DNA of 64,000 nt from Wenzhouxiangella sp. XN79A (GTDB lineage: Bacteria; Pseudomonadota; Gammaproteobacteria; Xanthomonadales; Wenzhouxiangellaceae). Position 1 is the stretch's first letter. Each line of letters starts with the position of its first letter. The notes beneath the pieces were generated by a model that was not told the origin of the DNA, did no database searches, and saw only the letters and a program-made list of their open reading frames with translations. This document shows positions 11,949 to 64,000 of this stretch, piece after piece. The stretch is from the NCBI RefSeq assembly GCF_012272825.1, contig NZ_JAAWWS010000136.1, positions 1-64,000 of the forward strand. Direction: 5' to 3'. The translations under genes and the position numbers were made by a program.

Positions 11949-13424
11949 GTGAGTTCACCGACCCGCCATCCGATCGCCAAGGTCGATACCGCCTGGCTGC
12001 GTATGGAACAGCCGACCAATCTGATGATGATCACCGGCGTGATCGTCTTCCGCGATTCGGTGGACTACGACCAGCTCAAGGACACCATCCGCTCGCGGTT
12101 CCTGGCCTTTCCCCGGTTCCGCCACAAGGCGGTGCAGACCTCGCGCGGAGCATTCTGGGAAGAGGACGAAGACTTCGAGCTGAGCTCGCACGTCCGCAGG
12201 ATCGCGTTGCCCGGAAACGCCGGCCGGGAAGAGCTGGAGGAGTTCGTCTCGGAGCTGGCTTCCACGCCGCTGGACCAGTACCGGCCGCTGTGGCAGTTCC
12301 ACTACGTCGAGAACTACGCCGAAGGGCCGGCGCTGATCACGCGCATCCACCACTGCTACGCCGACGGCATCGCGCTGGTCCAGGTGATGCTCTCGTTGAC
12401 CGACGCCGATCGTGTCCGCTCGCTGAAGCTGATCGAGCCCGACCAGTGGAAACGTCACCGCGCGCGCGAGTCGAACGTGTTCAAGCGCTTGATCGAGCCT
12501 GCCCGAGAAGGCATCGACGCGGTGCAGCACCTCGGGCAGAAACTGGTCGAGGAGGCCTCGTCGCTGATCCGCGATCCGTCGCAGGCCACCGACTACGCCG
12601 AAGCCGGGTCGGAGATCCTGTCGGAGCTGGCGACGCTGCTGCTGCTCCACGACGATCCACCGTCGCGGTTCAAGGGCAAGCTCGGCATCCGCAAGAAGGT
12701 GGCCTGGACCTCGCCGCTGCCGCTGGCCGAAGTCAAGGCGGTCAGCCACGCGTTGGGCTGCACCGTCAACGACGTGCTGATCGGCATCATGACCGGCGCG
12801 CTGCACCGCTACCTGGTCGACTACGGCGAGGACCCCTCGGAACTCGAAATCCGCGCGACGATCCCGGTGAACCTGCGGCCGCTGGAGCATGCCAAGGACC
12901 TCGGCAACCACTTCGGCACCGTCTTCCTCGACCTGCCGATCTGGGAGGCGAACCCGCTGTCGCGCATCTTCCGGGTGGCCGAGAACATGCATCACCTGAA
13001 GAAATCCAAACAGGCGACCGTGTCACTGGGCCTGCTGGCCACGGTCGGCATGGCGCCGTTGAAGATCCAGAAGGCCGCCCTCGAGCTGTTCGCGCGCAAG
13101 GCCACCACGGTGCTGACCAACGTGCCCGGGCCGAGCGAGTCGCTGTATCTGGCCGGTTCGGAGATCGGGCAGATGATGTTCTGGGTGCCGCAGAGCGAGT
13201 CCATCGGCATGGGCATCAGTATTCTGAGCTACAACGATCAGGTGTTCTGCGGCGTCATCACCGACAACCGGCTTGTGCCCGATCCCGAGCGCATCGTCGA
13301 GCGCTTCGGCCACGAATTCGAGAACCTGCTCGCGCTGGTCATGATGCTCGGCCCCGGCGCCGACCGCAGCCCGCAGGACGTCGAGAACCAGGTCCAGGCC
13401 TGGCTGGACGAGATCGGGGACTGA
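11949..13424 (+). CDS. Wax ester synthase / diacylglycerol acyltransferase (WS/DGAT)
   Basis: 491 aa, GTG start; no earlier in-frame start exists and the N-terminal HPIAKVDTAWLRMEQP segment is a family feature, so this start is required. It joins acyl-CoA to a fatty alcohol or diacylglycerol, giving wax esters or triacylglycerol. The catalytic HHxxxDG motif is HHCYADG at residues 134-140. The second family block has the VNDVLIG and LTNVPGPSESLYLAG segments. It lies in a cluster with a phasin, an acyl-CoA-binding protein and a fatty acyl-CoA reductase, which favours wax ester storage. No Shine-Dalgarno sequence is evident. Confidence 0.93.
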   Translation: MSSPTRHPIAKVDTAWLRMEQPTNLMMITGVIVFRDSVDYDQLKDTIRSRFLAFPRFRHKAVQTSRGAFWEEDEDFELSSHVRRIALPGNAGREELEEFVSELASTPLDQYRPLWQFHYVENYAEGPALITRIHHCYADGIALVQVMLSLTDADRVRSLKLIEPDQWKRHRARESNVFKRLIEPAREGIDAVQHLGQKLVEEASSLIRDPSQATDYAEAGSEILSELATLLLLHDDPPSRFKGKLGIRKKVAWTSPLPLAEVKAVSHALGCTVNDVLIGIMTGALHRYLVDYGEDPSELEIRATIPVNLRPLEHAKDLGNHFGTVFLDLPIWEANPLSRIFRVAENMHHLKKSKQATVSLGLLATVGMAPLKIQKAALELFARKATTVLTNVPGPSESLYLAGSEIGQMMFWVPQSESIGMGISILSYNDQVFCGVITDNRLVPDPERIVERFGHEFENLLALVMMLGPGADRSPQDVENQVQAWLDEIGD

Positions 13425-16698: not shown

Positions 16699-18690
16699 AT
16701 GGCCTATTTCGTCACCGGGGGCACCGGCTTCATCGGGCGCAACCTGATCGACCAGCTGCTGAAACGACGCGGCACGGTCCACGTCCTGGTCCGTCGCGGA
16801 TCGAAAAAGAAATTCAACGCGCTGGTGGCCGAGCGTTGGAGCGACGACAGGAAACGCGTCGTCGCCGTCAGCGGCGATCTGACCAGGCCCTTCCTCGGCG
16901 TGTCGAAGGGCGATCGCGAGAAGCTCGGGGGCAAGATCAAGCACGTCTTCCATCTCGCCGCGGTCTACGACCTGTCGGCCAGCAGCGAGGACCAGGAGGC
17001 GGTCAATATCGACGGCACCCGCAACGCGATGCAGTTCGCCGAGGCGGTCGGGGCAAAGTGCTTCCACCACACCTCCTCGATCGCCGCGGCCGGCCTGTAC
17101 CAGGGCCTGTTCCGCGAGGACATGTTCGAAGAGGCCGGCAATCTCGATCATCCGTATTTCCGGACCAAGCACGACTCCGAAGGCCTGGTCCGGCGCGAGT
17201 GCCCGATTCCGTGGCGGATCTATCGGCCGGGGATGGTGGTCGGTCATTCCGAGACCGGGGAAATCGACAAGATCGACGGGCCGTACTATTTCTTCAAGTT
17301 GATCCAGAAACTGCGCAAGATGCTGCCGCCCTGGGTTCCGACGCTCGGGCTGGAGGGTGGCCGGGTCAACCTGGTCCCGGTCGACTTCGTGGCCAGGGCA
17401 ATGGATCACATCGCGCACAAGCCGAAGCTCGACAACACCTGCTTCCACCTGACCGACCCGAACCCGAAGCGGATCGGCGAGGTGATGAACCTGTTCGCCG
17501 AGGCGGCCCACGCACCGCTGATGTCGATGCGCGTCGATGCCCGGCTGTTCAGCTTCATTCCGCAGCCGATCAAACAGGGCGTCGGCATGCTGCCGCCGGT
17601 GCGCAGGATCATCAACCAGGTGCTCGGCGACCTCGGCATTCCGCGGGACGTATTGAACTTCTTCAACTATCCGACCAGCTTCGATACCCGCGAGACCGAT
17701 CGCGCGCTGAAGGGCTCGGGCATCGAGGTGCCGCGGCTGGAGGACTACGCCTGGGTGCTGTGGGACTACTGGGAGCGCCACCTCGATCCGGACCTGTTCA
17801 TCGATCGCTCGCTGAGCGGCCACGTCCGTGGTCGGGTGGTGCTGGTCACCGGCGCCTCGTCGGGCATCGGCAAGGCCACGGCGCTGATGATGGGCGAGGC
17901 CGGCGCGCACGTGATCCTGGTCGCGCGCAAGGAGAGCGAACTGCTGGAGGTCAAGACGCTGATCGAGAAGAACGGCGGCAAGGCCTCGGCCTACACCTGC
18001 GACCTGGCCGACGTCGAGGCCGCCGAGAAACTGTGCACCCGGGTCGTCAAGGACCACGGTGCCGTGGACGTGCTGGTCAACAATGCCGGGCGTTCGATCC
18101 GCCGCTCGATCAACCTGTCCTACGACCGGTTCCATGACTTCGAGCGCTGCATGTCGCTGAACTATTTCGGCGCGCTGAAGATGATCCTCGGCCTGTTGCC
18201 GGCGATGGAACAGCGCCGCAGCGGCCACATCATCAACATCTCCTCGATCGGGGTGCTGACCAACGCGCCGCGGTTCTCGGCCTATGTCGCCTCGAAAGCC
18301 GCGCTGGATGCGTTCTCGCGCTGCGCGGCTTCGGAGTTCAACGATACCGGCGTGGCGTTCACCACGATCAACATGCCGCTGGTGCGCACACCGATGATCG
18401 CGCCGACCAAGATCTACGACTCGGTGCCGACGATCACGCCGGAGGACGCCGCCGACATGGTCAAGCAGGCGGTCATCTATCGCCCGCAGCGCATCGCGAC
18501 CCGGCTCGGCATCTTCGGCCAGGTCCTGCACGGCGTGGCGCCGAAGATTTCCGAGATCGTGATGAACTCGGCCTACCGGATGTTCCCGGATTCGGCAGCC
18601 GCGCGCGGCGAGCGCCCCGGCAAGGACGAGCGCAGCGTGACCCAGGAACAGATGGCCTTCGCGCACCTGATGCGCGGCATTCACTGGTAG
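16699..18690 (+). CDS. Marinobacter-type fatty acyl-CoA reductase (alcohol-forming), two SDR domains
   Basis: 663 aa from ATG at 16699 (AGGAGAA upstream). It closely resembles the ~660-residue alcohol-forming reductase of Marinobacter, which reduces fatty acyl-CoA through the aldehyde to fatty alcohol with NADPH. The N-terminal extended SDR domain (about 1-370) has GGTGFIG at 7-13 and a YxxxK pair in PYFRTKHDSEG. The C-terminal classical SDR domain (about 378-640) has VTGASSGIG near 383-391, NNAGRSIRRS, and YVASKAALDAF. The ending MRGIHW parallels the Marinobacter enzyme. It would supply alcohol for the wax ester synthase upstream. Confidence 0.9.
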   Translation: MAYFVTGGTGFIGRNLIDQLLKRRGTVHVLVRRGSKKKFNALVAERWSDDRKRVVAVSGDLTRPFLGVSKGDREKLGGKIKHVFHLAAVYDLSASSEDQEAVNIDGTRNAMQFAEAVGAKCFHHTSSIAAAGLYQGLFREDMFEEAGNLDHPYFRTKHDSEGLVRRECPIPWRIYRPGMVVGHSETGEIDKIDGPYYFFKLIQKLRKMLPPWVPTLGLEGGRVNLVPVDFVARAMDHIAHKPKLDNTCFHLTDPNPKRIGEVMNLFAEAAHAPLMSMRVDARLFSFIPQPIKQGVGMLPPVRRIINQVLGDLGIPRDVLNFFNYPTSFDTRETDRALKGSGIEVPRLEDYAWVLWDYWERHLDPDLFIDRSLSGHVRGRVVLVTGASSGIGKATALMMGEAGAHVILVARKESELLEVKTLIEKNGGKASAYTCDLADVEAAEKLCTRVVKDHGAVDVLVNNAGRSIRRSINLSYDRFHDFERCMSLNYFGALKMILGLLPAMEQRRSGHIINISSIGVLTNAPRFSAYVASKAALDAFSRCAASEFNDTGVAFTTINMPLVRTPMIAPTKIYDSVPTITPEDAADMVKQAVIYRPQRIATRLGIFGQVLHGVAPKISEIVMNSAYRMFPDSAAARGERPGKDERSVTQEQMAFAHLMRGIHW

Positions 18691-61088: not shown

Positions 61089-62327
61089 ATGAATTCGCCG
61101 GTCGGGATCGACGCCGCGGCGTTTGCCGGTCCCCACGCCTGTCTCGACCTGGCCGATCTGGCCGCGGCCCGCGGCGTCGACCCCGACAAGTTCGTGCTCG
61201 GCCTCGGCCAGCGCCGGATGGCGATCGCCTCGCCGTGCGAGGACACCGTCACCCTCGCGGTCGACGCCGGTCGCCGGGCGCTGGCGGCGTTCGACATCGA
61301 TCCGGCCGAGATCGGCACGCTGATCGTCGGCACCGAGACCGGCGTCGACCACAGCAAGCCGGTGGCCGTCTACGTCCACGAACTGCTCGGCCTCGACGCG
61401 CGCTGCCGCACTTTCGAAACCAAGCATGCCTGCTACGGCGCGATGGCCGGGCTGACCGCGTCGATGGACTGGATCGCCGCCGGCCGGGCGCGCGGACGCA
61501 AGGCGCTGGTCATCGCCTCCGACATCGCCCGCTATGGCCTGGGCACGCCGGGCGAACCGACCCAGGGCGCCGGTGCCGTGGCGCTGGTGGTCGCCGACCG
61601 GCCGCGCCTGCTGACCGTCGACCCGGCCACGATCGGCGACTACACCCGCCAGGTCATGGACTTCTGGCGACCGCTGTATTCCAAGGTCGCCTTTGCCGAT
61701 GGGCACTACTCGATCCAGTGCTACCTCGACGCGCTGGTCGGCGCGCGAGCCGACGCGGTGGGCGAGGGCGCGGCGCTGCTCGACGAGCTGGCCGCCTGCC
61801 TGTATCACGTGCCGTTCGTGAAGATGGCCAAGAAGGCGCACCAGCGCCACCTCGAGATCGAGCGCGGCGCGCCGCTGGATCGCGACAGCGATGCCGACCG
61901 GCAAGCGCTGGCCGCCAGCCTGTCGAGCCGGGTCGAGCCGTGGCTGACGCTCAACGCCGAGATCGGCAACATCTACACCGGCTCGCTGTTCCTGTCGCTG
62001 ATCGACCTGCTGCGCCAGGCCGCCGAGCGCTTTTCCGGGCGGACGGTCAGCCTGTTTTCCTACGGCAGCGGCTGCGGCGCGACCTTCTGCCTCGGCGAGA
62101 TCACCGGGACCGCGGCGCAGTGGGCCTCGGCACTGGACCCGTCCGAAGACCTGGCCCGTCGGTACCGCCTGAATATCGAGGACTACGAGCGGCTGGTCCG
62201 CGACGGCGAGCAGGCCGACACCGCCGAATCACTGGACCCGACCAGCTACGGCCTGTCCGACGGCCTGTTCTACGTCGGCACCGTCGACCACCAGCGGCGA
62301 TACGTGGAGAGCAGGGCTGAGCGGTGA
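61089..62327 (+). CDS. Hydroxymethylglutaryl-CoA synthase
   Basis: 412 aa. Condenses acetyl-CoA and acetoacetyl-CoA to HMG-CoA. All three catalytic residues of the bacterial enzyme are visible: Glu83 (GTETGVD), Cys115 (FETKHACYGAMAG) and His240 (LYHVPFVKMAKKAH). Length fits. HMG-CoA synthase serves the mevalonate pathway or polyketide beta-branching; neither set of genes is in the window, and most gammaproteobacteria lack the mevalonate route. The last codons and the stop lie inside a 7-bp repeat array that begins at 62318, so the C-terminus may have been altered by it. Confidence 0.92.
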   Translation: MNSPVGIDAAAFAGPHACLDLADLAAARGVDPDKFVLGLGQRRMAIASPCEDTVTLAVDAGRRALAAFDIDPAEIGTLIVGTETGVDHSKPVAVYVHELLGLDARCRTFETKHACYGAMAGLTASMDWIAAGRARGRKALVIASDIARYGLGTPGEPTQGAGAVALVVADRPRLLTVDPATIGDYTRQVMDFWRPLYSKVAFADGHYSIQCYLDALVGARADAVGEGAALLDELAACLYHVPFVKMAKKAHQRHLEIERGAPLDRDSDADRQALAASLSSRVEPWLTLNAEIGNIYTGSLFLSLIDLLRQAAERFSGRTVSLFSYGSGCGATFCLGEITGTAAQWASALDPSEDLARRYRLNIEDYERLVRDGEQADTAESLDPTSYGLSDGLFYVGTVDHQRRYVESRAER

Positions 62328-62513
62328 GCGGTGAGCGGTGAGCGGTAAGCGGTGAGCGGTGAGCGGTGAGCGGTGAGCGGTGAGCGGTGAGCGGTGAGCG
62401 GTGAGCGGTGAGCGGTGAGCGGTGAGCGGTGAGCGGTGAGCGGTAAGCGGTAAGCGGTAAGCGGTAAGCGGTGAGCGGTGAGCGGTGAGCGGTGAGCGGT
62501 GAGCGGTGAGCGA
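62318..62513. repeat. Heptanucleotide array, 28 units of TGAGCGG
   Basis: 28 uninterrupted 7-bp units. Most are TGAGCGG; units at 62346 and at 62444, 62451, 62458 and 62465 are TAAGCGG; the last (62507) is TGAGCGA. The first unit overlaps the HMG-CoA synthase C-terminus and its TGA provides the stop. Plus-strand frames are all closed by the repeated TGA; minus-strand frames are all open, encoding a spurious SPLTAHR repeat. Confidence 0.97.
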
Positions 62514-62603
62514 TGAACCCGAACCCCGAACCCTGAACCCTGAAACCTGAAACCTGAAACCTGAAAACTGAAAACTGAAAACTGAAAACTGAAAACTGAA
62601 ACC
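62514..62603. repeat. Second heptanucleotide array, TGAACCC to TGAAAAC
   Basis: About 13 units continue without a gap in the register of the preceding array. In order: TGAACCC, one 6-base unit GAACCC, CGAACCC, TGAACCC, three TGAAACC, five TGAAAAC, one TGAAACC. The stepwise base change across neighbours indicates local unit duplication. The remaining stretch to 62721 shows no gene or clear site. Confidence 0.95.
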
Positions 62604-62721: not shown

Positions 62722-64000
62722 TCAGCAAAAATCCCGCGAGTCCGCGGCCAGTCCGTCCAGCCAGCCGTCCAGGGTCTCGAAACGATGCGCCACCACGTGC
62801 TGGGTGCCGTTGGCGTTCTGAAGCGTTCCGACGACCTTCAGCAGCGTTGCCTGCAGCACTTCGGCCCGGAACCGCTCCAGCAGCTTCGGCCAGACGATCA
62901 CGTTGATGATCCCGGTCTCGTCTTCCAGCGACAGGAACACCACGCCCGAGGCGGTGCCCGGCCGCTGGCGGTGGGTGACGACGCCGGCGGCCTGGACCGC
63001 ACTGCCGTCGGGCAGGGCGGCCAGCGCCCGGGCCGGCTTGACCCGCGCGCCCAGCCGGCGGCGCAGTTGTCCGATCGGGTGATGGTCCAGCGACAGGCCG
63101 GTGGCGGCGTAGTCGTCGAGCAGGTCTTCGCGCACGCCCGGCAGGCCGAGCTGCGGTTGCTGCTCGGCCAGCTGCGCATGGGCCAGCAGATCACCCTGGC
63201 GGCGTGCGCCGAGGGCCTGCCAGCGCGCCCGCCGCCGATGTCCGGCCAGCCCCTTCAGCGCGCCGGCCTCGGCCAGCGCGCGGATTGCCTTCGCGTCCAG
63301 CCCGGCGCGTTCGGCCAGTTCGCCGGTGTCGCGGAACGGCGCATGGGCGCGCGCCGCGACCAGCCGCTCGGCGGCCTCGCCGGCCAGGCCGCGGACCAGG
63401 CGCAGGCCCAGCCGGATGGCCGGGTTGCTGGTGCTGCAATTGTCGTTCCACTCATGGCCGCCGCGCGGGTCCGGGCACAGCGAGCAGTCCACGTCGCTGG
63501 CCCGCACGTCGACCGGCAGCACGCGCACGCCGTGCCGGCGCACGTCGGCGATCAGCTGGGCCGGCGCGTAGAAGCCCATCGGCTGGCTGTTGAGCAGGCC
63601 GCAGCAGAACGCCGCCGGGTGATGGCGCTTCAGCCACGACGAGAAGTAGGTCAGCAACGCGAAACTGGCCGCGTGCGACTCGGGAAAACCGTAGTCGCCG
63701 AAGCCGCAGATCTGGCCGTAGATCCGTTCGGCGAACGCCAGCGAATAGCCGCGCGCCAGCATGCCGTCGATCAGCTTGTCGCGGAACGGTTCCAGTCCGC
63801 CGCGACGCTTCCAGGCCGCCATCGCCCGCCGCAGCTGGTCGGCCTCGCCGGGGGTGAAGCCGGCCGCGACGATCGCGATCTGCATGACCTGCTCCTGGAA
63901 GATCGGCACGCCCAGGGTGCGCTTCAGCACGCTCTCCAGCGCCGGGCCGGGATAGCTCACCCGGCTCGGATCGTCGCGCCGCTCGAGGTAGGGATGGACC
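62722..64000 (-). CDS. dnaE2: Error-prone DNA polymerase DnaE2, C-terminal part (runs off window)
   Basis: About 426 residues are visible; the frame stays open to the window edge, so the start lies beyond 64000. It is the C-family polymerase alpha-like enzyme of the ImuA-ImuB-DnaE2 damage-tolerance cassette. Visible parts: VPIFQEQVMQIAIVAAGFTPGEAD (in two blocks: VPIFQEQVMQIA, AGFTPGEADQLRRAM), FGDYGFPESHAASFALLTYF, HHPAAFCCGLLNSQPMGFY, the HhH region and an OB-fold near the end (ETGIINVIVWPKLLERFR). The CCGLLNSQPMGFY segment and the short OB-ending C-terminus distinguish DnaE2 from replicative DnaE1. Confidence 0.92.
   Translation of the reverse strand, partial: VHPYLERRDDPSRVSYPGPALESVLKRTLGVPIFQEQVMQIAIVAAGFTPGEADQLRRAMAAWKRRGGLEPFRDKLIDGMLARGYSLAFAERIYGQICGFGDYGFPESHAASFALLTYFSSWLKRHHPAAFCCGLLNSQPMGFYAPAQLIADVRRHGVRVLPVDVRASDVDCSLCPDPRGGHEWNDNCSTSNPAIRLGLRLVRGLAGEAAERLVAARAHAPFRDTGELAERAGLDAKAIRALAEAGALKGLAGHRRRARWQALGARRQGDLLAHAQLAEQQPQLGLPGVREDLLDDYAATGLSLDHHPIGQLRRRLGARVKPARALAALPDGSAVQAAGVVTHRQRPGTASGVVFLSLEDETGIINVIVWPKLLERFRAEVLQATLLKVVGTLQNANGTQHVVAHRFETLDGWLDGLAADSRDFC

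Follow-up and report, generated by a model that had tools for sequence, protein, structure and literature searches.

A composite heptamer array at the 3' end of an HMG-CoA synthase family gene in a Wenzhouxiangellaceae genome, and its probable growth by whole-unit slippage

The window (the whole stretch of DNA that was analysed, 64,000 nucleotides) belongs to a genome of the Wenzhouxiangellaceae, here G000, represented by one draft assembly of 171 contigs. A tract of tandem heptamers lies in it between two convergent 3' ends, that of HMGS on the plus strand and that of a DnaE2-like gene on the minus strand (Table 1). HMGS terminates at the TGA stop codon 62325-62327, in unit 2 of the array, and the final three residues of the protein (A-E-R) are encoded by the array itself. 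The distance from the array end to the 3' end of the dnaE2-like gene is 118 nt. Three overlapping minus-strand frames are open because the array unit has no stop on that strand; judging by the composition of the unit, they are to be taken as spurious and not as genes. They are nevertheless liable to be annotated as hypothetical proteins with HRSPLTA and FQFSVFS repeats. For annotators, the complements of such heptamer arrays yield long spurious reading frames.

Table 1. Coordinates of the heptamer tract and of the frames around it.
Feature	Coordinates	Strand	Description or support
Whole tract	62318-62603	+	286 bases, 41 head-to-tail heptamer units
Block 1	62318-62513	+	28 heptamers, 196 nt; TRF score 356, 97% matches
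Block 2	62514-62603	+	13 units, 90 nt; TRF score 110, 93% matches
HMG-CoA synthase family gene (HMGS), 412 aa	61089..62327	+	ORF; Pfam HMG_CoA_synt_N 1.6e-27, _C 4.5e-27
DNA polymerase III alpha-chain (DnaE2-like) gene, 3' part, running past the window end	62722..63999	-	ORF; Pfam DNA_pol3_finger 2.8e-24, HHH_6, OB-fold
Three overlapping frames, probably spurious, 193/140/152 aa	62101..62728	-	ORF list; array complement (HRSPLTA..., FQFSVFS...)

By direct reading, block 1 contains 22 TGAGCGG units, 5 TAAGCGG units (unit 5 and units 19-22) and a final unit 28, TGAGCGA. Block 2 reads, in order, TGAACCC, GAACCC, CGAACCC, TGAACCC, three TGAAACC, five TGAAAAC and a last TGAAACC. The GAACCC unit (62521-62526) has only 6 nt, its T being missing, which leads to a single 1-nt register slip within block 2. 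A preliminary description of this DNA had given 28 plus about 13 units over 286 bases, one of them short of a base and one beginning with CGA, and these coordinates and counts are exact (the two deviant units are GAACCC and CGAACCC). All other units were said there to begin with TGA: most of them do (34 of the 41 units), the rest being the five TAAGCGG, the CGAACCC and the T-less unit. The unbroken register described there holds across the block junction 62513/62514, where the TGA spacing carries on, and fails at the 1-nt slip. In the same manner, the stepwise gradient in block 2 (from TGAACCC through TGAAACC to TGAAAAC) is present except for the last unit, which reverts to TGAAACC. Three substitutions separate TGAGCGG from TGAACCC, at 3 of the 4 non-TGA positions.

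Exact period-7 repetition reaches a run of 90 at the tract. The corresponding maximum was 8-12 in 20 mononucleotide shuffles and is 7 elsewhere in the window, so that the 7-nt tandem run is longer than chance. Exact arrays of other periods from 5 to 12 are absent from the 64-kb window. The RNA fold of the array is no more stable than those of shuffles (z = -0.45). The hairpins of the spacer amount to one weak 5-bp stem on the minus strand, at shuffle level (0.9 expected). Two candidate roles were discarded: (i) a bidirectional terminator or inverted pair, since the locus contains neither an inverted partner array nor a terminator hairpin above shuffle level; (ii) a phase-variation repeat, since the array is 3' of HMGS and of the dnaE2-like gene and no promoter-like site was found. 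The array probably has no function at this locus.

In the closest syntenic relative (G004), HMGS is 83% identical and has the same convergent neighbour; it ends on its own TAG stop and the array is absent. Two further congeners (G002 and G005) are also without the array. It is very improbable that the tract is an assembly artefact. The assembly is a draft of 171 contigs in which arrays exceeding short-read length may be collapsed or mis-sized, and some array matches in relatives lie near contig ends; on the contrary, unique genes run on at both sides of the tract, the window is positions 1-64000 of a 95,945-base contig, and similar arrays are found in single-contig genomes such as G017.

The tract is not isolated in its genome. 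G000 was surveyed through sampled stretches, i.e., 326 kb of array-centred loci and 285 kb largely off known arrays, with TGA search patterns that bias the finds towards TGA. It carries dozens of heptamer arrays, mostly in spacers downstream of genes. In the array-centred loci, 69 exact arrays have period 7; each of the other periods from 4 to 15 accounts for 0-7. The mostly array-free sample adds two arrays, of CGAACCC and GGAAACC. The other heptamer arrays that the preliminary description had suggested looking for are thus present, and they form one unit family. Its members are connected with one another: TGAAAAC, TGAACCC, TGAAACC, TGAGAAC, TGACAAC, TGATCCC, TGAGCAG, TGAACAG, CGAACCC, CGAAACC, CGAGAAC, GGAACCC, GGAAACC, TTAACCC and GGAGCGG; GGGACCA is the one outsider. 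Many of these arrays are mosaics like the tract. The longest one (351 nt, unbroken) contains successively GGAACCC, TGAACCC, CGAACCC, TGAACCC, TGAAACC and GGAAACC. That the arrays lie 3' of genes is seen from their orientation: 29 of 36 have their upstream neighbour on the TGA strand (p=3e-4), genes having been called by a simple GC-by-codon-position method that leaves some error in neighbour orientation. Most of the arrays begin 20-376 nt past the stop codon.

It was considered whether the arrays are parts of one larger mobile repeat. This is rejected, since only some of the loci have dispersed repeats in common when their flanks are compared. A palindromic repeat (TCATCCCGGGGC...GAACCCGGGATCTCGTGACG...CGTCACGAGGTTCCGGGTTC) is dispersed beside several G000 arrays (L125 5082-5500 and about 12,400-12,800; L127 13,640-14,056; L167). 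A second dispersed repeat (GAAGGCCTGTTGGAGGCCGCTTGCGGGC...CCCTCCAACAGGCGAA) is found in L115, L116 and L178. The search for known RNA families at five array loci gave one tRNA only.

Some loci of G000 have a particular organization. In the upstream array flanks of L112 and L125, TGAGCAG and TTTTCAG (the reverse complement of CTGAAAA) are interleaved in one register, i.e., two unit types in both orientations share one common phase. L125 also contains (TTAACCC)9 at 16950-17015, i.e., a telomere-like (GGGTTAA)n, joined in register to (TGAAAAC)10. In L126 5700-8300 (contig C50, of low coding density), same-strand frames of about 145-175 aa are separated by short heptamer-bearing spacers; this region is possibly a gene-cassette array.

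The register at the junctions of exact blocks was scored by an automatic procedure in six genomes (G000, G017, G032, G010, G043 and G053). Neighbouring blocks that differ by a single letter keep the register at 29 of 29 junctions. Those that differ by two or more letters are at the best register at 15 of 23 junctions, when 4.1 are expected with random phase. A change of unit in phase is thus the general behaviour of these arrays, and the tract is typical. The tract is probably a composite heptanucleotide simple-sequence repeat, grown by whole-unit slippage with local amplification of altered units. Slipped-strand mispairing would lengthen or shorten an array by whole 7-nt units; an occasional base substitution would alter a single unit, and later slippage would multiply the altered unit beside its parent. 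The outcome would be in-register blocks one letter apart, such as TAAGCGG within TGAGCGG, or TGAACCC followed by TGAAACC and TGAAAAC. In the case of neighbours several letters apart, either the intermediates would have disappeared or short-homology template switching would have joined two array types. At HMGS, the array would have replaced the end of the reading frame. The step being a whole unit, the register is expected to be a by-product and not a selected property. The slippage plus unit conversion put forward in the preliminary description is a good fit to the block of four TAAGCGG, to the one-step gradient and to the 29/29 and 15/23 in-register joins. A difference in copy number at an orthologous place was found in a second genus of the order, g14 (L189/L201, about 6 versus 9 units).

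A chance contact of two unrelated arrays, each expanded independently, could also account for the two blocks; this is unlikely. At the first junction, independent expansion retains some probability because TGAGCGG and TGAACCC are three substitutions apart, with TGAGCGA as the lone partial intermediate. Both types exist apart from each other in G000, and out-of-register junctions are known (5 nt between the blocks in C28, 4 nt in L115). However, multi-step joins in register are far above the one-in-seven expectation across genomes, and unit 28 (TGAGCGA) looks transitional.

The preliminary description also considered selection for the TGA spacing. Any frame entering the array stops within three units because a TGA comes every 7 nt, and a stop with this spacing would shut all three frames behind a gene (fail-safe termination). 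HMGS does terminate within the array. In genus g14 (G043 and G053), 29 of the 65 intergenic arrays have their start between -21 and +3 nt of the stop of the sense gene, 16 of them exactly on it; stop codon positions, whose comparison had been suggested from the start, thus associate arrays with gene ends both at HMGS (stop in unit 2) and in a further genus. The transition variants of g14 keep the stop (TAA in 8 arrays, CGA or TGG in 1), against 2 versus 9 in G000 (p=0.005). The array of the 8-mer TGAGACGG likewise sits after a stop codon.

These observations, made on finds obtained with a TGA pattern, are suggestive only of TGA selection in g14. The constancy of TGA is partly a matter of ascertainment because the arrays were found with this pattern. 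On the side of G000, selection for TGA is rejected: (i) triplet variants destroy the stop in 25 cases and preserve it in 2; (ii) most arrays begin at least 20 nt (up to 376 nt) beyond the stop codon, i.e., too far for TGA to matter in ending the gene; (iii) arrays of CGAACCC, GGAACCC, CGAGAAC, TTAACCC and CAACAAC share the register. In a class sample of 274 genomes, six-unit arrays gave 173 matches for TGANNNN and 151 for the reversed control AGTNNNN, these totals being summed by hand with some arrays counted in both. Moreover, selection for additional stops was not found in bacteria (Ho and Hurst 2019, PMC6764699). Taken as the explanation of the tract, TGA selection is thus quite improbable.

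The preferred explanation, slippage, is incomplete in its purely local form. Three observations are beyond it: (i) the same few units recur at loci of a genome that are not linked, with other units in relatives; (ii) the units jump by three substitutions from TGAGCGG to TGAACCC at 62513/62514; (iii) multi-step joins are in register in excess. The main alternative is copying between arrays, in which short-homology template switching or gene conversion carries unit types from one unlinked array to another, or from one arm of an inverted pair to the other. Each genome would gain its own dialect, and a new type could replace an old one in register; such copying may add to slippage. It would cover both the shared units and the three-letter jump, and is possible although not favoured.

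The number of arrays per genome goes from 0 to 55 among 61 relatives, and the dialects vary between genomes. The dominant units are TGAAAGG in G034, TGACCAC/TGACTAC in G032, TGAAGTG/TGAAAGG in G017 and TGAGCCT/TGATCCT in G006. At orthologous places of G043 and G053, the arrays are on the same stop codon and the unit is sometimes different. TGACGCG corresponds to TGAGTGG/TGAGTAG in L188/L202, and TGAGTAG to TAAGCAG in L185/L204; in both cases the two arms are changed together, as expected from dispersed copying. In L191/L206, (TGAGTAG)n corresponds to an octamer, (TGAGACGG)n. In g14, facing array pairs between convergent genes, around a short spacer, were found 22 times and back-to-back pairs 0 times. 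The facing arms have the same unit class in 21 of the 22 pairs (Fisher p=2e-4; e.g., L182, L185, L189, L200 and L204). This concordance and the 15/23 multi-step joins in register also argue for copying. Against it, no copying event is directly seen, and array loci are generally without common unique flanks, though some share other dispersed repeats.

Octamer arrays behave like heptamer arrays. Those of TGAGACGG, GGGGAATC and GGAGAAGG types are at gene 3' ends, beside heptamer arrays or replacing them (L243, L244, L251, L254, L257 and L258 in G053, L223 in G017). TGAGACGG runs into GGGAATCG in register.

A reverse transcriptase, i.e., templated addition in a telomerase-like manner, was considered as a requirement and rejected because array-rich genomes are without an RVT_1 match (G010, G021, G023, G032, G036, G043 and G053). 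The presence of reverse transcriptase does not track array number; that these seven genomes are rich in arrays without this enzyme also counts against dispersed copying. A cluster of nine RVT_1 matches within 29 kb, several of identical score, was noticed in G017 (G017:C1:3792391-3820990).

Comparison with known systems leads to the conclusion that the tract belongs to the broad kind of heptamer repeats, and to neither of the two named unit families (GGGNATC and TAACTGA). According to Mrazek et al. 2007, as cited in PMC4679880 and PMC4692102, 7 nt is the commonest long repeat unit in many prokaryotes, and slippage tied to the polymerase contact length is the proposed cause. As far as these citing papers describe them, the LSSRs of Mrazek are like the present arrays in their 7-nt unit, long runs exceeding chance, high number per genome, mostly intergenic position (also the case in G000), patchy presence in relatives and proposed slippage. 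They differ in that the units here are connected into one family and make up in-register mosaics within a single array.

The GGGNATC heptamers of Xanthomonas and Nostoc (Rehm et al. 2015, PMC4692102) occur genome-wide, 0-50 bp behind stops or overlapping them, on the coding strand, and are rare between divergent genes. They form single arrays or inverted pairs, and the unit number varies at conserved places. The present arrays have the same genome-wide presence, position behind or over stops, single or paired organization and rarity between divergent genes, and their unit number differs at one conserved place in g14 (L189/L201); the stop of HMGS, in unit 2, agrees with the limit of 50 bp or overlap. 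On the contrary, the units are of TGA/NGA type (TGAGCGG, TGAACCC, TGAAACC and TGAAAAC in the tract), and the tract is without four-unit preference. Only the few TGAACCC-type units, read as GGGTTCA on the minus strand, have GGG, and most units are unable to form a three-G quadruplex.

The TAACTGA direct repeats of Beggiatoaceae, Cyanobacteria and Bacteroidetes (MacGregor 2015, PMC4679880) mostly lie immediately before start codons, with 2-6 copies. In one orientation they put a stop in every frame, and some genomes have them mixed with other heptamers. The tract is similar as a TGA-containing heptamer with all-frame stops one way, mixed units and absence from close relatives. It differs by its units, by its 41 copies and by its place between two gene 3' ends, not upstream of starts.

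Among long microsatellites, heptamer arrays are the most common type in many bacteria. Genus g14 has arrays anchored on stops, with units that differ between species and facing arms that match; the sharing of units among dispersed arrays is thus testable. The family surveyed here (0 to 55 arrays per genome, orthologous stops with different units) is a compact test system for resequencing, with three questions: why the unit has 7 nt, why the same few units are found at unlinked places, and whether there is any function. More tentatively still than copying as such, the dispersed 7-nt (and 8-nt) arrays of gene 3' ends might evolve in concert within each genome, units being copied among unlinked arrays and inverted arms. 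With unit copying inside each genome, the dialects of species would thus differ while the anchoring on stop codons persists. If this concerted evolution is true, the array of the window would be a half-completed swap of one unit type for another.
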